Source of the DNA: Candidatus Borkfalkia stercoripullorum
Lineage (GTDB): Bacteria > Bacillota > Clostridia > Christensenellales > Borkfalkiaceae
Direction of reading: 5' to 3'
Length of the DNA stretch: 33,938 bases
Assembly: GCA_019119395.1 (NCBI GenBank)
Contig: DWXC01000014.1
Location: forward strand, 1-33,938
Below, in pieces: positions 1,629-16,622 of this stretch. The notes below the pieces were generated by a model. It saw only the letters and a list, made by a program, of their open reading frames with translations, did no database searches and was not told the origin of the DNA. Both the position numbers and the translations under genes were made by a program. Position 1 is the stretch's first letter, and each line of letters starts with the position of its first letter.

Positions 1629-4265
1629 ATGAAAAAATACGGTAAGTATATCGCAAAAGAATTCAAACACAGTTTCGGAAGGTTTATCGCGATCATGGCG
1701 ATCGTGGCGCTCGGCGTCGGTTTTCTGATCGGCGTCATGCAGGCAACGCCCGACATGAAGCGCTCCATGGACATATATTACCGAGAATCCGCGATCTATG
1801 ACATCGACATAAAGGGGGCATACGGGCTGACGCAGGCGGACGTCGACGCGATCTCTTCGCTGACGGACGAGGACGGCAACGCGCTCGTCTCTTCGGCCAT
1901 GCCCGTGCTTTCCACCGACGCGATCGTTTCGGCCGGCGGGGCCGAAGTCGTCGGAAGGATCGTCGGGCTCGATTTTGCAAAAGTCAGATCGGGCGATTAC
2001 CTCAATAAGTTCGAACTGATCGAAGGGGAATTCCCCGACGCTGCGGGCGAGGTCGTCATAGAGCGTTCCAACAATTATTTCGTGGACATAAAAGTCGGAG
2101 AGAAGATATCTGTCGTGTCCGGCGGGCAGAAACAGTACGGCGACGTGTATGCGATCGAAGAGTTCACCGTTGTCGGCGTCGTCGCTTCCCCCGATTACTT
2201 TTTCAGGGACGGCAGAGAGGTCACCACGATCGGCACGGGCGTCGTCGGAGCGGTGATATACGGCCAGGCGTACGACAGCGCGGAAAATGCCGGCGACGGG
2301 ATTTACGACCTTTCGGGCGGAGATCTTTTTTCCGTGCTCAACCCGTACCTCGAAACGACGGAAGGCGAAGGCGGCGGCATCCTGTACACCGATTGCCGGG
2401 TCGCGCTTGCGGGGTCGGACGAATACGAGGCCTTTACCGAAAATTATAAATCTTTCGTATTGCAAAGCGCGGATGCGTTCTCGTCTTTGGGTACGGAGAG
2501 AAGCTCGCTCCTCAACGGCAAGATCGAAACGCTGAACGGGATCCTTGCGGGGATGGGTATGTCTTCGTCCGTTCCCGCTTCTGCCGAATGGTACGTGCTG
2601 GACAGGGCGAGTACGAACGTCAGTTATGTCAGTTATGACCTGAACGTGGAAAAAGTCGAGGATATCGCGGGGATCTTTCCCGTGTTCTTTATCGTGGTCG
2701 CGGCGCTGGTCGCTTTGACTTCCATGACGCGTATGGTCGAGGAAGACCGAATGCAGATCGGCACGTTCAAGGCGCTCGGATACAGTAACGGCAGGATCAT
2801 GTCGAAATACCTGCTTTACTGCTGCCTTGCGAGCTTTATCGGCTGCGTTGCGGGTATCCTCATCGGGTTCAGCCTGCTGCCCAGCATATTCTGGCGTGCC
2901 TATGCGACGATGTACTATCTGCCGTCGCTCTCCCTGTTGTTCAGCCCTTGGTTTGCCGTGGCTGTGTTTGCGATCGCTTTGGCGGGTACGGCGCTCGTCA
3001 CGCTTTTCGCCTGCCGCGCTTCGCTGAAAGAAAAGCCCGCGACGCTCATGCAGCCGAAAGCGCCGAAGCCCGGAAAGCGCATCCTTCTGGAAAAAGCGAC
3101 GCCGGTCTGGAAGCGGCTCAAATTCAAATGGAAAGCGACTGTCCGCAACATTTTCCGATACAAGAAAAACATGATCCTTACGATCATTTCGGTCATGGGC
3201 TGTACGGCGCTCATTCTTGTGGGCTTCGGGCTCAACGATTCGGTCGGCGCCGTGGAAAACATCCAGTACAAAGAGATCGTGAAGTATGACGCGATCATCG
3301 AATACGACTCTTCCGAAGAAGCGGGCGAGCATGCGTATCTGGATGAATTTCTCGGCGGGGAAGGCGTGGAAAGCGTTGCCGTTTACGGAGAGAACGGGCA
3401 GCTCGTCATGAACGGAGGCAGGGAAAGCATAGAACTGTACGTGGTGAATACGGAGGGCGGCGAAGCCGTTTCAAAATTTAATTCTCTTGTAGAGTTGCGA
3501 ACTCGGAAAAAATCTGCTATAATAGATATAACGCAAAACGGTTTGATCCTGCCGGAAAACATTGCGACGGTCTACGGCGTGAAAGCCGGGGACACGGTGA
3601 CGTATGTTTCGGCATCGGGAACGGCGCATGAAGTGCCCGTGGCGGCGGTCTGCGAATATTACACGGGGACGGTCGCGTACATGAACGGCGCGTTCTTCTC
3701 GTGGCTCGAAGAGAATGCCGACCTCACGCCCAACACCTTGTTCGTAAAGTCCGGGGTGACCGATACGGGCGCGGCGACGGAATTGCTTTTGCAGGACGGG
3801 CGGGTCACGTCGGTCACGTTTACCGACGATACATTGGAAACTTTCCGCGGGTTGAGTTCCACGATGGGGCTCGTCATTGCCGTGCTGGTCATCAGCGCAG
3901 GCGCGCTTGCCGCGATCGTTTTGTATAATCTCACCAACATCAATATCGACGAACGGAAAAAAGAGATCGCGACGCTCCGCGTGCTCGGTTATAAGAAGTA
4001 CGAAGTTGCGGGATATATTTACAGGGAAAGCGCGATATTGACCGTTGCGGGGACTTTGTTCGGGCTGTTGCTCGGTTTCCTGCTGCACATATTCATCGTG
4101 AACAGGGTGGACAGCGTGATGATGATGTTCGGGCGCGCGATCGGCGGGCTGAGCTATCTTTGGGCGTTTCTTCTGACGCTTGCGTTTGCGGCGATCGTGT
4201 ATGCGTTCATGTTGATTAAATTGAACAGGATCAGTATGACGGATTCGCTGAAGTCCAACGAATGA
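1629..4265 (+). CDS. ABC transporter permease with two FtsX domains
   Basis: An 878-residue membrane protein. An N-terminal anchor (about residues 14-34) is followed by a long extracytoplasmic region. A first FtsX-like bundle starts near residue 350 and carries the typical RMQIGTFKALGY coupling segment. A second anchor lies near 516, another external region follows, and a C-terminal FtsX bundle runs from about 745 to 862 with the paralogous KKEIATLRVLGYKK segment. This duplicated MacB/FtsX layout is typical of large Gram-positive exporters of the YtrF/YknZ/BceB kind. The ATG at 1629 has CGGAGG 6 nt upstream. A GTG at 1608 is also in frame but lacks a site. The stretch around 3470-3540 is AT-rich compared with the rest of the gene and contains a promoter-like sequence. 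Confidence 0.9.
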   Translation: MKKYGKYIAKEFKHSFGRFIAIMAIVALGVGFLIGVMQATPDMKRSMDIYYRESAIYDIDIKGAYGLTQADVDAISSLTDEDGNALVSSAMPVLSTDAIVSAGGAEVVGRIVGLDFAKVRSGDYLNKFELIEGEFPDAAGEVVIERSNNYFVDIKVGEKISVVSGGQKQYGDVYAIEEFTVVGVVASPDYFFRDGREVTTIGTGVVGAVIYGQAYDSAENAGDGIYDLSGGDLFSVLNPYLETTEGEGGGILYTDCRVALAGSDEYEAFTENYKSFVLQSADAFSSLGTERSSLLNGKIETLNGILAGMGMSSSVPASAEWYVLDRASTNVSYVSYDLNVEKVEDIAGIFPVFFIVVAALVALTSMTRMVEEDRMQIGTFKALGYSNGRIMSKYLLYCCLASFIGCVAGILIGFSLLPSIFWRAYATMYYLPSLSLLFSPWFAVAVFAIALAGTALVTLFACRASLKEKPATLMQPKAPKPGKRILLEKATPVWKRLKFKWKATVRNIFRYKKNMILTIISVMGCTALILVGFGLNDSVGAVENIQYKEIVKYDAIIEYDSSEEAGEHAYLDEFLGGEGVESVAVYGENGQLVMNGGRESIELYVVNTEGGEAVSKFNSLVELRTRKKSAIIDITQNGLILPENIATVYGVKAGDTVTYVSASGTAHEVPVAAVCEYYTGTVAYMNGAFFSWLEENADLTPNTLFVKSGVTDTGAATELLLQDGRVTSVTFTDDTLETFRGLSSTMGLVIAVLVISAGALAAIVLYNLTNINIDERKKEIATLRVLGYKKYEVAGYIYRESAILTVAGTLFGLLLGFLLHIFIVNRVDSVMMMFGRAIGGLSYLWAFLLTLAFAAIVYAFMLIKLNRISMTDSLKSNE
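3495..3523 (+). promoter_or_regulatory. Promoter-like sequence inside the permease gene
   Basis: TTGCGA (3495-3500) and a perfect TATAAT (3518-3523) are 17 nt apart in an AT-rich patch of an otherwise GC-rich coding region. A short palindrome with arms GAGTT/AACTC (3493-3505) covers the -35. It could give extra transcription of the downstream regulators, or it could be chance. Confidence 0.3.
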
Positions 4266-4286
4266 CGGCAAAGGACGGTGGAGCAT

Positions 4287-5255: not shown

Positions 5256-5957
5256 GTGTTTTTTGAATTTCTTCACGTCATTCTCGGAAAATTTTTGTTC
5301 TTTACTTCGGCGATCGGCGGGAAGGGGTCTTTCCCCAAACCGCTGCCGCCCGAAGAAGAGGCAAAGTATCTCCGCCTTGCGGCGGAAGGGGACAAATCGG
5401 CAAAGGATATGCTCGTCAAGCACAACATGCGGCTCGTTGCGCATATCGTAAAAAAGTACAACGGGGCGGCGGAGACGGACGACCTCATTTCGGTCGGCAG
5501 TATCGGGCTCATCAAGGCGATCGACACCTACCGCCCCGGCCGCGGCACGCAGCTTGCCACGTATACGGCGCGGTGCATTGAAAACGAGATACTCATGCTG
5601 ATCAGAAGCAACAAAAAACATAAAAACAACGTGTATCTGTTCGATCCCGTCGGCGTAGACAAAGAAGGCAACGAACTGACGCTGATGGATATTCTTTTCG
5701 AAAAGGAAGACGGCGTTTTTCAGGCGGTGGAATCCGAACTGGTCAAAGAAAAATTCATGAAGGCGCTTTCGGGCGCGCTCACCGAGCGGGAATACACGGT
5801 TCTCTGCCTGCGGTACGGGCTGAAAGGCGGCGCGCCTATGCCGCAGAGAGAGGTTGCGGCGTTTTTGAAGATTTCGCGTTCATATATTTCGCGGATCGAA
5901 AAGCGCGCGATCGAAAAGGTGCGCGCCGCCGTGAAGGAGAGCGATTTTTACGGCTGA
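5256..5957 (+). CDS. sigK: RNA polymerase sporulation sigma factor SigK
   Basis: A 233-residue sigma-70 family factor acting late in the mother cell during endospore formation. It starts with a hydrophobic stretch (residues 1-20, like the pro-sequence removed from pro-SigK) followed by SFPKPLPPEEE, the SigK-type junction. Region 2 contains HNMRLVAHIVKK, DDLISVGSIGLIKAID and ATYTARCIENEIL; region 4 is at about residues 180-228. The GTG at 5256 is chosen because GAAGGGGG lies about 10 nt upstream and the resulting N-terminus matches SigK. The open frame to 5133 runs through the previous terminator and is not coding. The gene is uninterrupted, with no skin-type element. SigE is the nearest alternative, but the junction favours SigK. 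I see no clear terminator behind it. Confidence 0.9.
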   Translation: MFFEFLHVILGKFLFFTSAIGGKGSFPKPLPPEEEAKYLRLAAEGDKSAKDMLVKHNMRLVAHIVKKYNGAAETDDLISVGSIGLIKAIDTYRPGRGTQLATYTARCIENEILMLIRSNKKHKNNVYLFDPVGVDKEGNELTLMDILFEKEDGVFQAVESELVKEKFMKALSGALTEREYTVLCLRYGLKGGAPMPQREVAAFLKISRSYISRIEKRAIEKVRAAVKESDFYG

Positions 5958-6029
5958 AGCCAAGGTGCGCCCGAGCGAAAAAATATGCGGCGGGATCGCG
6001 CGCGGAGGGGAGTAATTTTAAAAAAACTG

Positions 6030-6058
6030 TTTACAGCGCGCGCTTTCCGTGCTATAAT
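6030..6058 (+). promoter_or_regulatory. Sigma-A promoter of mcsA-mcsB-clpC-hpf
   Basis: TTTACA (6030-6035) and TATAAT (6053-6058) are 17 nt apart. Transcription should begin near 6065, leaving a leader of about 90 nt before mcsA. I see no CtsR-type GGTCAAA direct repeat around it. Confidence 0.85.
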
Positions 6059-6072
6059 ATAGTATAAGATAT

Positions 6073-6145
6073 AGATAAAAAACAGATGTTGCGCTTTTTG
6101 TCCTCCGCCGGACAGGCCCTGCGGGGCGGCGCCGATTTATCTGTT
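6073..6145 (+). other. Foldable 5' leader of the mcsA operon
   Basis: The leader can close by AACAGAT (6081-6087) with ATCTGTT (6139-6145), whose last base is directly followed by the CGGAG ribosome binding site at 6146-6150. A competing helix pairs AGATAAA (6073-6079) with TTTATCT (6136-6142). Two short inner hairpins (GTCC/GGAC near 6100-6113 and GCCC/GGGC near 6116-6127) fill the interior. Mutually exclusive helices beside the ribosome binding site suggest translational control, but this rests only on reading the pairings by eye. Confidence 0.35.
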
Positions 6146-6155
6146 CGGAGACTGC

Positions 6156-6647
6156 ATGATCTGTTCGAATTGCAACAAAAACCTCGCGACGCATTGCATT
6201 GAGCGCGCGGGGGGAGACCTGTTCCTGTGCGACGACTGTTATGAACGCCTGGGCGAGGCTGCGGAATACGGCGCCGAGCCGGATTTTTTTGTTTCCTTTC
6301 TCGGCATAGACGATACAAACGAGAGAAAATGCCCCGCTTGCGGGACGGCGCTGTCCGAATATTCCGCGACGGGGCTCGTCGGATGCGCGCATTGCTATGA
6401 AACGTTCCGCAAAGAGCTTATGCCGTCCGTCCGCAGGATACACGGAAAGACGCTTCATATCGGCAAGCGCCCTTTGGGGGACGGGAAGTTTTTCGAACTG
6501 GTCGAAGAACGCAACCGTCTGCGCGCGGAACTGGAACGGGCGCTCAAAGAAAAGCGCATGAAAGACGCGGAGCGTCTCAACCGCGACATCCGCGAGATCA
6601 GCGAGATCCTTTTGCGCAGGGACTTCGGAGGTTCGGAAGATGAATAA
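6156..6647 (+). CDS. mcsA: McsA, zinc-finger activator of the arginine kinase McsB
   Basis: A 163-residue protein with four CxxC pairs at residues 3/6, 25/28, 59/62 and 77/80, which should hold zinc. The C-terminal UvrB/UvrC-like helical segment (about 115-160) is rich in Glu, Arg and Lys. McsA stimulates McsB and helps deliver substrates to ClpC. The ATG at 6156 has CGGAG 5 nt upstream. It overlaps mcsB by 8 nt, implying translational coupling. In Bacillus this operon begins with the repressor gene ctsR; here mcsA is the first gene, and sigK lies upstream. Confidence 0.93.
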   Translation: MICSNCNKNLATHCIERAGGDLFLCDDCYERLGEAAEYGAEPDFFVSFLGIDDTNERKCPACGTALSEYSATGLVGCAHCYETFRKELMPSVRRIHGKTLHIGKRPLGDGKFFELVEERNRLRAELERALKEKRMKDAERLNRDIREISEILLRRDFGGSEDE

Positions 6648-14911: not shown

Positions 14912-15003
14912 GCAGAGATGGCGGAGTGGTCGAACGCGCACGACTCGAAATCGTGTGTGCTCCCATAAGAGCACCAAGGGTTCAAATCCCTTTCTCTGCG
15001 CCA
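14912..15003 (+). tRNA. tRNA-Ser(CGA)
   Basis: The acceptor stem GCAGAGA/TCTCTGC with discriminator G and encoded CCA (15001-15003) closes the cloverleaf. The anticodon stem CACGA/TCGTG holds the loop CTCGAAA, anticodon CGA at 14946-14948, reading UCG. A long variable arm (GTGCTC/GAGCAC) is typical of serine tRNAs, and the T-arm carries GGGTTCAAATCCC. An accessory island begins directly after the 3' end. Confidence 0.97.
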
Positions 15004-15309: not shown

Positions 15310-15555
15310 ATGAGCAATAAAATAAAATGTTATATTTGTGGTACAGAACTTGAAGGGGATGAAAGTTTGGTTGATTTTTGTCCTTATTGTGATTGGATTT
15401 ATTTGGGGTGGGAAAGTGAACTTGATTTAGACGATAAAGATAATGTCAATCGCGTATCTATAAGACAGGCAAAGGAGAACGTTTCCAAAGGATTAGATGT
15501 TCATGGCGATCCTTTACCGAATAAGAAAAAGCGAAAAAGGAATTTGAACGTATAA
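15310..15555 (+). CDS. Small zinc-ribbon protein, CPCC-like (copy 1)
   Basis: An 81-residue protein with CxxC at residues 7/10 (CYIC) and 24/27 (CPYC), a central DWIYLGWESE, then an acidic patch and NRVSIRQAKENVSKGLD. The order (two CxxC, a tryptophan motif, N-x-VS-x-xQA) recalls the Cys-rich CPCC family of unknown function. The C-terminus is strongly basic. Base composition is much more AT-rich than the core genes, in line with transfer. The ribosome binding site (AAGGCAGG, 15293-15300) is weak. Copy 2 follows 18 nt later. Confidence 0.75.
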   Translation: MSNKIKCYICGTELEGDESLVDFCPYCDWIYLGWESELDLDDKDNVNRVSIRQAKENVSKGLDVHGDPLPNKKKRKRNLNV

Positions 15556-15573: not shown

Positions 15574-15792
15574 ATGGCATATAAGGAAAAGTTAAAATGT
15601 CCGATTTGCGGGACGGAGTTTGAAGGCGGTTCGTTTGATGACTGCCCTTATTGCGACTGGACTTATTTAGGGTATGAAGGGGAAATGGAAGAAGACGAGT
15701 TGGATTCAGCCAATCCCGTGTCGATACAGAAAGCAAAAGCACTTGTGGCCAAAGGCTTAAACATCTGGGGCGAGCCTTTGCCGAAGAAATAA
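15574..15792 (+). CDS. Small zinc-ribbon protein, CPCC-like (copy 2)
   Basis: A 72-residue paralogue of the previous gene, with CxxC at residues 9/12 (CPIC) and 24/27 (CPYC), then DWTYLGYEGE and NPVSIQKAKALVAKGLNIWGEPLPKK. AAGGAGG at 15555-15561 overlaps the end of copy 1, with 12-nt spacing, so the pair is one unit. A terminator follows at 15816. The two proteins share the framework but differ in tail charge, suggesting an old tandem duplication. Function is unknown; zinc binding is inferred from the Cys pairs. Confidence 0.78.
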   Translation: MAYKEKLKCPICGTEFEGGSFDDCPYCDWTYLGYEGEMEEDELDSANPVSIQKAKALVAKGLNIWGEPLPKK

Positions 15793-15871: not shown

Positions 15872-16042
15872 GTGGCGAAACTGTCTGACCGTCAGCGGAA
15901 GCAGATCATCGCCGAATATGTAGAAGGCGACGGGAAAGTGTCGCAAAGGTCGCCGGCAAAAAAGTACAACGTTTGTTTATCCACAATATCGAAGATATTG
16001 AGCGATGAAAAAGCAGAACAAAGTGTACACATAAAAAAGAAA
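15872..16042 (+). pseudogene. Truncated phage-type HTH gene (terminase small-subunit-like N-terminus)
   Basis: The GTG start at 15872 has AAGGAGA 8 nt upstream and encodes KLSDRQRKQIIAEYVEGDG, then KVSQRSPAKKYNVCLSTISKIL, a helix-turn-helix typical of the N-termini of small phage terminase or transposase-like proteins. After about 57 residues similarity ends in a Lys-rich stretch where the frame meets the terminator of the antisense RNA gene. The frame stays open to 16402, but the rest is antisense to the RNA and looks random. I read it as a gene fragment; a short functional DNA-binding peptide is possible. Confidence 0.6.
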
Positions 16043-16318
16043 AGAAAAAAGACTGATAGGGAGGACGCGCATTTCCCTCCATCGCGCCGAAATCGGTGCG
16101 GCAGGCGAGCGCGGTTTTCTGCCATTCGTATCAGTCTTTTTTATAAAGTGTTTGCCTTTGGATGGACGCCTTCCTCAAAAGAGGAACCATCATTATTTAG
16201 CAGCTACGGCGATTTTTCTGCTGTCAAAGGCTGTTTAACTGAACGGGGAGCCGCACGGTTCCTCCCATTACAAGCGACAGCGAGTGCGGAGCATAATTTC
16301 TGTCGTCGTTCAGTTTTC
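16041..16318 (-). ncRNA. Candidate structured noncoding RNA, about 275 nt
   Basis: It is transcribed leftward from a perfect promoter (16325-16353) and ends at a 14-bp hairpin plus U-run. Helices, given in plus-strand coordinates, fall into three domains. Domain I: 16307-16315 pairs with 16237-16245 (9 bp), enclosing hairpins 16300-16305/16275-16280 and 16262-16266/16246-16250, whose loops can kiss through 16284-16289 with 16251-16256 (6 bp). Domain II: 16225-16231/16154-16160, with hairpins 16218-16222/16199-16203 and 16187-16191/16161-16165 capped by 16181-16186/16171-16176 and a UUUU loop; 16208-16211 can pair with 16167-16170. Domain III: 16129-16142/16045-16058, with hairpins 16119-16123/16100-16104 and 16076-16080/16060-16064, whose loops can kiss through 16109-16113 with 16066-16070. 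It has no tRNA-like ends (so not tmRNA), no SRP or RNase P core motif, and no sensible open frame. I cannot assign it to a known family. Confidence 0.75.
16045..16142 (-). terminator. Terminal hairpin and U-run of the candidate ncRNA
   Basis: A perfect 14-bp inverted repeat (16045-16058 and 16129-16142, core AGACTGATA) closes domain III. On the minus strand it is followed by a T-rich stretch that continues to about 16032. The six T residues in the right arm could also stop plus-strand transcripts. Confidence 0.7.
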
Positions 16319-16324
16319 ACTTAT

Positions 16325-16353
16325 ATTATACTCCCGAACCGAAAAAATGTCAA
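16325..16353 (-). promoter_or_regulatory. Consensus sigma-A promoter driving the ncRNA
   Basis: On the minus strand TTGACA (complement of 16348-16353) and TATAAT (complement of 16325-16330) are both perfect, with a 17-nt spacer. Transcription should start near 16318. No ribosome binding site or open frame lies downstream, which points to an RNA gene. Confidence 0.88.
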
Positions 16354-16373
16354 CAGTAAAGGAGAATTTTTTT

Positions 16374-16622
16374 ATGCCCGATATACAAACATACCCGTAT
16401 GACGACGATTTTATGATCTTCGACGGCGTTACGGGGCAATACGTCATAGCGGAAAAGGCGTTGCTCTCGCGTGGGACAGACATCCGTGCGAGGCTTGTTG
16501 CGGCATCATCGCAATGCCGTATATTGAGTTCGGTCTTACCTTTTCGCAGTATCTGCGGAATTTATTCGGTATACGCAGTTATCGGGCCGTTGCGGGAGGC
16601 CGTTTACCGATTTTTCGTTTGA
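16374..16622 (+). pseudogene. Phage-structural-like gene fragment
   Basis: The ATG at 16374 has AAGGAG 10 nt upstream and encodes MPDIQTYPYDDDFMIFDGV, then TGQYVIAEKALLSRGTDIRARL. This start resembles small structural or connector proteins of Clostridia prophages, which are usually longer than 140 residues. Here similarity fades after about 45 residues, and the frame stops at 82 residues, 20 nt before the converging penicillin-binding protein gene. It is best read as a truncated and perhaps frameshifted prophage remnant. The family resemblance is recalled, not computed. Confidence 0.5.

Follow-up and report, generated by a model that had tools for sequence, protein, structure and literature searches.

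A candidate orphan array of RNA antitoxin modules in a phage remnant of Candidatus Borkfalkia stercoripullorum

Closest described systems

In type III toxin-antitoxin systems (ToxIN, CptIN, TenpIN; AbiF-RCd22) a structured RNA adjoins a ribonuclease-type gene. We compare here with these and other described systems an RNA locus of Candidatus Borkfalkia stercoripullorum, in which a minus-strand promoter precedes ~275 nucleotides (nt) that divide into three modules (W1, W2 and W3). The locus lies in contig DWXC01000014.1 (assembly GCA_019119395.1), which was analysed entire and is called the window below (33,938 bases). We consider it probable that the locus is a promoter-driven array of three type III-like RNA antitoxin modules directed against BECR-type nucleases, and that the array is an orphan here.

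The adjoining ribonuclease-type gene is found with relatives of the modules, not in the window. Tandem RNA repeats with pseudoknot-type contacts occur both in the window and at several other loci, and the direct neutralisation of a protein by an RNA is, for the modules, a proposal. Other traits differ: the toxin is BECR-like by Pfam, and the RNA unit is a junction of ~75-95 nt. Type III RNAs lie upstream of the toxin gene and are co-transcribed with it, with a terminator in between, whereas the module RNAs lie 3' of the gene on the opposite strand (17/17 pairs, 13 with a promoter by motif), and skipping-rope RNA lies 3' on the same strand. Module arrays also mix types and often have no toxin gene.

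Polymorphic toxins of the MuF kind are similar in having toxin genes in phage head clusters with an immunity determinant directly 3', and PBECR domains occur fused to MuF (PMC5512222, PMC5576092). Their immunity determinant is held to be a small protein encoded by an open reading frame (ORF) of the kind that follows 89.4% of 191 toxin genes (PMC5576092); here it would be an RNA, and the neighbouring proteins are separate and short, several of them with an N-terminal HPRxxDGKF-like leader. The Rfam family nearest to the modules is skipping-rope RNA (RF02924), for which the Rfam rows give no function and which PMC8501573 counts among phage RNAs. Among the papers listed by a literature search, outside which most subscription papers and preprints fell and which leaves priority unsettled, no title or opening of an abstract connects these RNAs with BECR toxins. 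GOLLD, ROOL and raiA are also structured RNAs, partly in phage settings, GOLLD and ROOL being much larger than the window RNA. None of the three has a Rfam covariance model match in the window, and the raiA identity once suggested for this RNA is dropped.

The RNA in the window and its modules

A first reading of the DNA (the sequence-only reading) had proposed a perfect TTGACA-N17-TATAAT promoter on the minus strand, a structured RNA gene of ~275 nt with three two-hairpin domains and possible loop contacts of 6, 4 and 5 bp, and a 14-bp helix that closes the last domain and runs into a U-run. All of these are present (Table 1). The RNA region (16319-16041) has a folding energy of -91.2 kcal/mol against -74.3 +/- 4.9 in 200 dinucleotide shuffles (z = -3.48), none of which is equally stable. 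Each module consists of a closing helix and two hairpins, although the plain minimum-energy fold of the region comes without the loop-loop contacts and folds W3 alone in another way. The sequence-only reading had seen no plausible frame after the promoter; open frames do occur, two of 77 and 58 codons overlapping W3 on the minus strand, and one of 176 codons on the plus strand (15872-16402; comparison with a phage gene covered its first 56 codons) that is antisense to the entire RNA. As had been supposed, an all-Rfam scan gave no match at gathering score to the RNA: two tRNAs are the only matches in the window that reach it, and between 15950 and 16450, at E <= 10, the scan returned three sub-threshold plus-strand matches and nothing else. 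Comparative evidence, given below, supports a structured RNA gene, the transcription of which we infer.

Table 1. Features of the RNA locus and its surroundings (window coordinates; R1, covariance model described in the text; aa, amino acids)
Feature	Positions	Strand	Description
Sigma-70-type promoter of the RNA array	16325..16353	-	Read in the sequence; TTGACA 16353-16348, 17-nt spacer, TATAAT 16330-16325
Module W1	16238..16314	-	Closing helix ACUGAACG/CGUUCAGU; two hairpins; possible loop-loop contact CCGCAC/GUGCGG (6 bp); R1 59.7 bits
Module W2	16154..16231	-	Closing helix GCCUUUG/CAAAGGC; two hairpins; possible loop-loop contact CGCC/GGCG (4 bp); R1 61.0 bits
Module W3	16045..16142	-	14-bp closing helix into U-run (terminator-like); two hairpins and a junction hairpin; possible loop-loop contact CGCGC/GCGCG (5 bp); R1 56.6 bits for 16053-16131
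Phage gene fragment	16374..16622	+	Resembles the G032 phage gene behind the RNA (L022:7849-8289; 68% identity over 41 aa); putatively head-connector-like from its position, no PHROG match
Start of open frame	15872..16039	+	57% identity over 56 aa to L022:565-1002; frame open to 16402; small-terminase-like as a guess from its position
Two small cysteine-rich CPCC-like proteins	15310-15555, 15574-15792	+	PF14206 just below cut-off

A DNA search gave matches in 10 of 40 genomes of the genus; among the 13 places listed, the last three, in three genomes, are chance-like matches of 20-43 nt, and the partial matches among the remaining places are single modules. The genome that holds the window has a second array on contig C28 (L025, 1-360), made of a promoter, an A1 module, a W3-type module and a divergent A3-type terminal module (AACCCAAUGG), and genome G024 carries the same array (A1, W3 type, A3 type). 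The order is A1-W1-W3 in G038 and W3-A3-C3-W2 in G007; G008 holds A1, the remnant of a W1 that passes into C3, and W2; a single module, W2, is found in G032. Because modules occur singly or reordered elsewhere, W1-W3 are a tandem array of separable ~75-95-nt modules and not domains of one large RNA. The structured RNA, its loop contacts and its phage setting were thus retained from the sequence-only reading, and the single large functional RNA of the GOLLD or ROOL sort was given up.

A covariance model (R1) was built from 14 modules, with the divergent A3-type modules left out. In the genus it gave 17 matches of at least 46 bits, in 6 of 40 genomes, which were kept, and the next best, all at 24.1 bits or less, were counted as chance. 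In the family it placed modules in 16 of 398 genomes and six genera (E <= 5e-4). Modules are also present in metagenomic phages (viral contigs), and relatives on named contigs belong to Clostridia or Firmicutes metagenome-assembled genomes. Many phage loci hold one module only; by eye, G183 and G198 have several modules with their own promoters, and some arrays adjoin genes that are not phage-like in appearance. Viral contigs had no exact match to W3- or W2-type strings, and blastn against phages and plasmids likewise gave none. A genome pattern scan gave five loci, of which L080 (Cohnella; R1 17.1 bits) and L082 (Pseudomonas; no R1 score) were taken as chance.

Compensatory changes in homologues had been named as the check on the proposed helices, which survived it in 50 aligned modules (48 distinct rows). 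Helix cells are paired in 89.1% of cases versus 66.5% in shuffles, in 13 of 16 helix pairs both partners have changed, and the alignment scores 0.579 for covariation versus 0.185 in shuffled and 0.09-0.14 in slid alignments, all figures that are biased upward because the alignment was fitted to the structure and the sequences are related. Further pair types (37) were not above shuffles (36.1; 218/500 as high).

The loop-loop contact, which is absent from the R1 model, covaries in modules of the window type and in skipping-rope RNA. After similar loops were dropped, 19 of the 50 modules showed an own-partner complementarity of 12.7, against 10.8 +/- 0.5 with permuted partners (5/20,000 as high), and 16 of 25 skipping-rope RNAs gave 11.8 against 7.6 +/- 0.8 (0/20,000). 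Loop-loop sequences differ freely from module to module (CCGCAC/GUGCGG, CCGCGC/GCGCGG, CGCC/GGCG, CGCU/AGCG, CGCGC/GCGCG, CUGCU/AGCAG, CUGCC/GGCAG, GCGU/ACGC, CGCAUU/AAUGCG); in one A3-type module (L011, C2) no clear contact was found by eye.

Nuclease-type genes beside the modules and skipping-rope RNA

Five genomes of the family (G032, G067, G169, G245 and G254) have a gene for a protein of 173-198 aa that is followed immediately on its 3' side by a convergent module, which has its own promoter. Pfam assigns this protein to LPD13, a name that does not say nuclease, in G067, G245 and G254 (A1 or W1 modules) and to PBECR1 in G032 and G169 (W2 or C3 modules). Matches above the cut-off include LPD13 in L085, L087, L088 and L109 and PBECR1 in L022, L086, L120, L121, L125, L126 and L128; L085 has in addition a weak PBECR2 match (E 0.007, below cut-off). 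Relatives of W1 also adjoin LPD13 genes in L087 and L112, and those of W2 adjoin PBECR1 genes in L022 and L105. A portal or large terminase is recognised by PHROGs in the surroundings in G032 and G067, whose putative capsid and head-connector genes had no PHROG match.

Searched from the protein side, the 398 family genomes yielded LPD13 in three and PBECR1 in three, and all six carry a module beside the gene. Five of them are the genomes in which the pair was first noticed; the sixth, G269, was missed by the R1 scan, yet has one where it was predicted (22.8 bits), with a P2 helix that by eye reads AUAUA/UAUAU versus AGCAG/CUGCU in relatives. Among the matches listed for viral contigs, LPD13 relatives occupy seven loci, six of them distinct, and in 6/6 the gene has a module on its 3' side. 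Five of these modules score 35.7-56.6 bits; that of L109 scores 13.7 bits and has a promoter and a U-run by eye. PBECR1 relatives came from an alignment-based scan (17 viral loci, 14 distinct), a scan with one PBECR1 protein having found none. L111, L114, L116 and L118 were counted as duplicates of L110, L113, L115 and L117 by identical lengths and scores rather than by alignment. In INPHARED phages, tblastn found no LPD13 relative and 116 records for PBECR1, mostly of Helicobacter hosts.

We collected the LPD13 and PBECR1 genes with an R1 module into 17 pairs, a set that leaves out PBECR1 loci without such a module, as well as L087's second ORF and the PBECR3-like one in L109. The nearest module edge is -7 to +37 nt from the toxin stop and the module strand is opposite to the gene in every pair; a promoter found by a fixed motif search precedes 13 of the 17 modules. 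Module and toxin similarity are correlated over the pairs (Mantel r = 0.459; 2/20,000 permutations). Some contigs hold two or more toxin-type genes with an RNA for each (L087; L108/L109; L110/L113), which argues that the RNA tracks the toxin and not one phage site.

Two other arrangements were seen in viral contigs. In L113 (3628-3975, minus strand) four differing modules (C3, A1, W2, W2') form an array that adjoins one PBECR1 gene, and an LPD13 gene elsewhere on this contig is accompanied by a module of its own. In L087 (5769-5833, plus strand) a second module of 25.6 bits stands beside another ORF (5857-6552) with a weak LPD3 match (E 2.5e-4, below cut-off).

Skipping-rope RNA was found in an all-Rfam scan of ten loci, at 53.8 bits in viral contig L109 and directly behind a predicted nuclease gene (PBECR3, E 5.6e-5, below cut-off). 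In 245 genomes of the class there are 33 matches in 27 genomes, and a PBECR3 search in an equally large class draw found 25 loci, spread over 22 genomes. By coordinates, 18 of these 25 loci carry a skipping-rope match on the same strand at a distance of 75-198 nt downstream from the domain, where ~0.0002 would be expected by chance (assuming 2.5-Mb genomes and a 300-nt window); in a nineteenth, L181, it is visible by eye. Among the six others, four PBECR3 domains lie in frames of 797-2437 aa and one in a frame of 262 aa, and no RNA was seen beside the stand-alone gene of L162 (149 aa). From 30 fetched skipping-rope loci, 20 ORFs near the RNA were picked, of which 14 exceed the PBECR2 or PBECR3 cut-off; one further ORF, in L136, is below it.

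The window modules fall short of the gathering score of RF02924 (36.7 bits), and none is matched by this family within 15950-16450 even at E <= 10. The best module score, 24.1 bits (E 0.3, below gathering), falls exactly on the A1 module of L113. A second model (R2), built from 25 skipping-rope RNAs (24 of the 30 loci and L109), was run over 29 loci (311 kb) and returned the true skipping-rope copy and 12 further matches at E <= 2. Eight of the 12 lie on module positions (two being one module under two locus ids) and four elsewhere, with a best E of 0.0019; R2 sees 8 of 50 R1 matches, most modules not being detected. Run unfiltered on 551 window bases, it ranks W3 (11.4 bits) and W1 (10.6 bits) highest, both on the correct strand and in register; W2 scores 1.9 bits and the wrong strand at W3 5.9 bits. 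In the other direction, R1 found one of 29 skipping-rope loci (L135 was left out), namely L154, at 17.5 bits and in the correct place.

These sub-threshold detections, in both directions and at exact module positions, accompany other likenesses. The RF02924 consensus and the modules share the junction topology P1, P2, (junction hairpin), P3, with a closing helix, a 5-bp hairpin, an optional junction hairpin and a second 5-bp hairpin, and they also have in common a covarying loop-loop contact and, in most cases, an AUG before the last hairpin; BECR-type nuclease genes adjoin skipping-rope RNAs as they do module relatives. In contrast, module relatives are convergent with the toxin gene and skipping-rope RNAs co-oriented, modules form tandem arrays, and module toxins are mostly LPD13 and PBECR1 against PBECR2 and PBECR3. 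By Rfam's rule the window modules, which miss the gathering score, are not members of the skipping-rope family; we conclude that they are probably distant relatives. The sequence-only reading had left the choice between a divergent known class and a new one, with skipping-rope RNA unnamed, and the informative context proved to be the nuclease gene of the relatives. A MuF/DUF4258 protein in L154 (1501-2249, minus strand) is followed by a 73-aa ORF and then by a skipping-rope RNA with A1-like loops, which looks like an intermediate between the two families.

Proposed function, rival explanations and the surrounding island

We propose that each module folds into a three-way junction locked by the loop-loop contact, and that it would inhibit a single kind of BECR-type ribonuclease toxin by binding to it, in the manner of type III RNA antitoxins. 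Direct binding would be the simplest mechanism, by analogy with the RCd22 (abiF motif) RNA, which neutralises AbiF in this way (PMC12373285). In intact phages a module, usually one with its own promoter, stands beside a predicted toxin gene within the head gene cluster. The toxin is probably injected from the virion, in which its packaging is suggested by the gene position, the leader and PMC5512222, and RNA made from the prophage would shield the producing or lysogenic cell. The leader is found on several neighbour proteins (not in G245 and G254), is common to otherwise different phage proteins (L085, L086, L022, L105, L106, L108-L110, L112, L113, L115, L120 and others; variant HDKNGRF in L134), and is a possible virion-targeting signal. 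That the RNA would be the immunity determinant is suggested by its staying beside, and changing with, the toxin-like gene, by its own promoter and by the existence of arrays in genomes without an LPD13 or PBECR1 match.

In the window, the phage would have decayed and left the RNA alone between two gene fragments. Since only the RNA is left, with modules of several types, the array could act only in trans, as orphan immunity against the toxins of incoming phages. Among the 16 module-bearing family genomes, 11 have no LPD13 or PBECR1 match, including the genome of the window (92% complete), an absence that is provisional for incomplete genomes; PBECR2 was found in 0/12 genomes (these 11 and G019) in a search without a positive control. 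Because relatives of the three look-alike modules adjoin predicted phage RNA-cutting toxin genes, the window RNA most likely serves as a store of RNA antidotes to phage-delivered toxins. A wider proposal, to which we give even chances, is that skipping-rope RNA, the modules and a third RNA type described below make up a widespread superfamily of three-way-junction RNAs with kissing loops, which is the RNA immunity arm of phage polymorphic nuclease toxins; phages and hosts would collect its modules into mix-and-match orphan arrays against the toxins that competing phages inject. If true, this would give a concrete function to a Rfam family without a known one and to RNAs that Rfam misses, add a BECR-toxin branch to RNA-antitoxin systems, assign to an RNA the role so far given to immunity proteins of polymorphic phage toxins, and mean that orphan RNA-immunity arrays exist in bacterial genomes.

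Several observations weigh against this explanation, beside the upward bias of the covariation figures and the provisional absence of toxins from genomes that may hold other toxin families. The toxicity and nuclease activity of the neighbour proteins are predicted from Pfam and PBECR matches, and a fold search with models of an LPD13 and a PBECR1 protein (mean predicted local distance difference test scores of 78 and 72) found no structure in the PDB at E <= 0.001. The best matches of the LPD13 model are CorA transporters (E 3e-3), with a contact-dependent inhibition (CDI) toxin at E 0.03; the PBECR1 model best matches a CDI toxin (E 0.04), with RelE/YoeB-type toxins far below significance. 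After these and sequence searches of the PDB, the BECR fold of the two proteins is still a prediction. The correlation between module and toxin is weak within LPD13 (n=9; 811/20,000) and within PBECR1 (n=8; 674/20,000) alone. No W3 module was seen beside a toxin gene among the loci read. Of the 33 skipping-rope matches, 15 have no adjoining PBECR3: three have PBECR2 (L151, L153 and, below cut-off, L136), one the MuF/DUF4258 protein of L154, and beside the other eleven no such gene was found. Only 5 of the 14 distinct viral PBECR1 loci have an R1 module, and just 3' of the PBECR1 stop in L120, L122, L124, L126 and L127 there is, by eye, a different helix-closed hairpin pair.

This third RNA type has a GGxCUG-type loop and a UUAGU...CCU loop. 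RNAalifold pairs 26 of its columns, 17 of which are changed on both sides in at least one of the five sequences, and it has no R1, R2 or Rfam match in these loci. Since R2 also gave no match in the nine viral PBECR1 loci without an R1 module, the third type would be either an analogue or a very remote relative of skipping-rope RNA. Among other viral PBECR1 loci, L125 is possibly similar, L123 is cut off, nothing clear was seen beside the gene of L128, and L129 encodes a large polyvalent protein.

The tight linkage and the matching of RNA to toxin type would also fit an RNA that serves the nuclease as cofactor, guide or packaged partner in a ribonucleoprotein effector instead of inhibiting it. 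Such a role would hardly account for multi-module arrays in genomes without an LPD13 or PBECR1 match, or for the 13 of 17 modules that, by motif, have their own promoter, directed against the toxin gene, and it seems unlikely. A type I-like antisense regulator, pairing with the mRNA of the toxin or the late operon, is suggested by phage loci in which the RNA runs against structural genes and ends next to the toxin stop. We hold it to be quite improbable, because true pairs hybridise no better than swapped ones (-41.9 versus -41.7 kcal/mol, 7,897/20,000 as low, for duplexes with the toxin ORF and not the intergenic mRNA) and because skipping-rope RNA is on the strand of the PBECR3 gene in 18/18 loci; the conserved feature is also structure rather than complementarity.

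Phage modules lie near portal and terminase genes, as a structural or packaging RNA (pRNA-, GOLLD- or ROOL-like) or another regulator linked to head genes might do, but relatives stay with the toxin at other sites and also adjoin toxin genes that stand alone, and some arrays stand beside genes that by eye are not phage-like, which makes a role of this kind very unlikely. Topology alone speaks for a small-molecule aptamer or a sponge RNA, a three-way junction with kissing loops resembling that of purine riboswitches. This last alternative appears extremely improbable: no Rfam riboswitch matches in the window, loop-loop sequences are free to vary among modules, and the linkage with toxins is left unexplained.

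The setting of the RNA antitoxin array proposed here, between two phage gene fragments as the sequence-only reading had it, is borne out by the identities to genes of the G032 phage (Table 1). The 56-aa stretch lies past the 3' end of the RNA and resembles the gene that opens the phage cluster, which PHROGs places in the DNA-binding/invertase type, and the other fragment lies past the promoter. In G032 a portal, a capsid-like and a toxin gene stand between the two genes; the window has room for the RNA only, and its island is without a toxin gene. The two CPCC-like proteins of the window may be remnants of protein immunity gathered in the same island, given that in G007 (L020) such a CPCC-like protein (3644-3856) and the end of an HPRxxDGKF-leader gene (3846-4277) overlap. 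A tRNA-Ser gene (14912-15003, plus strand) adjoins the island and is a possible integration site.
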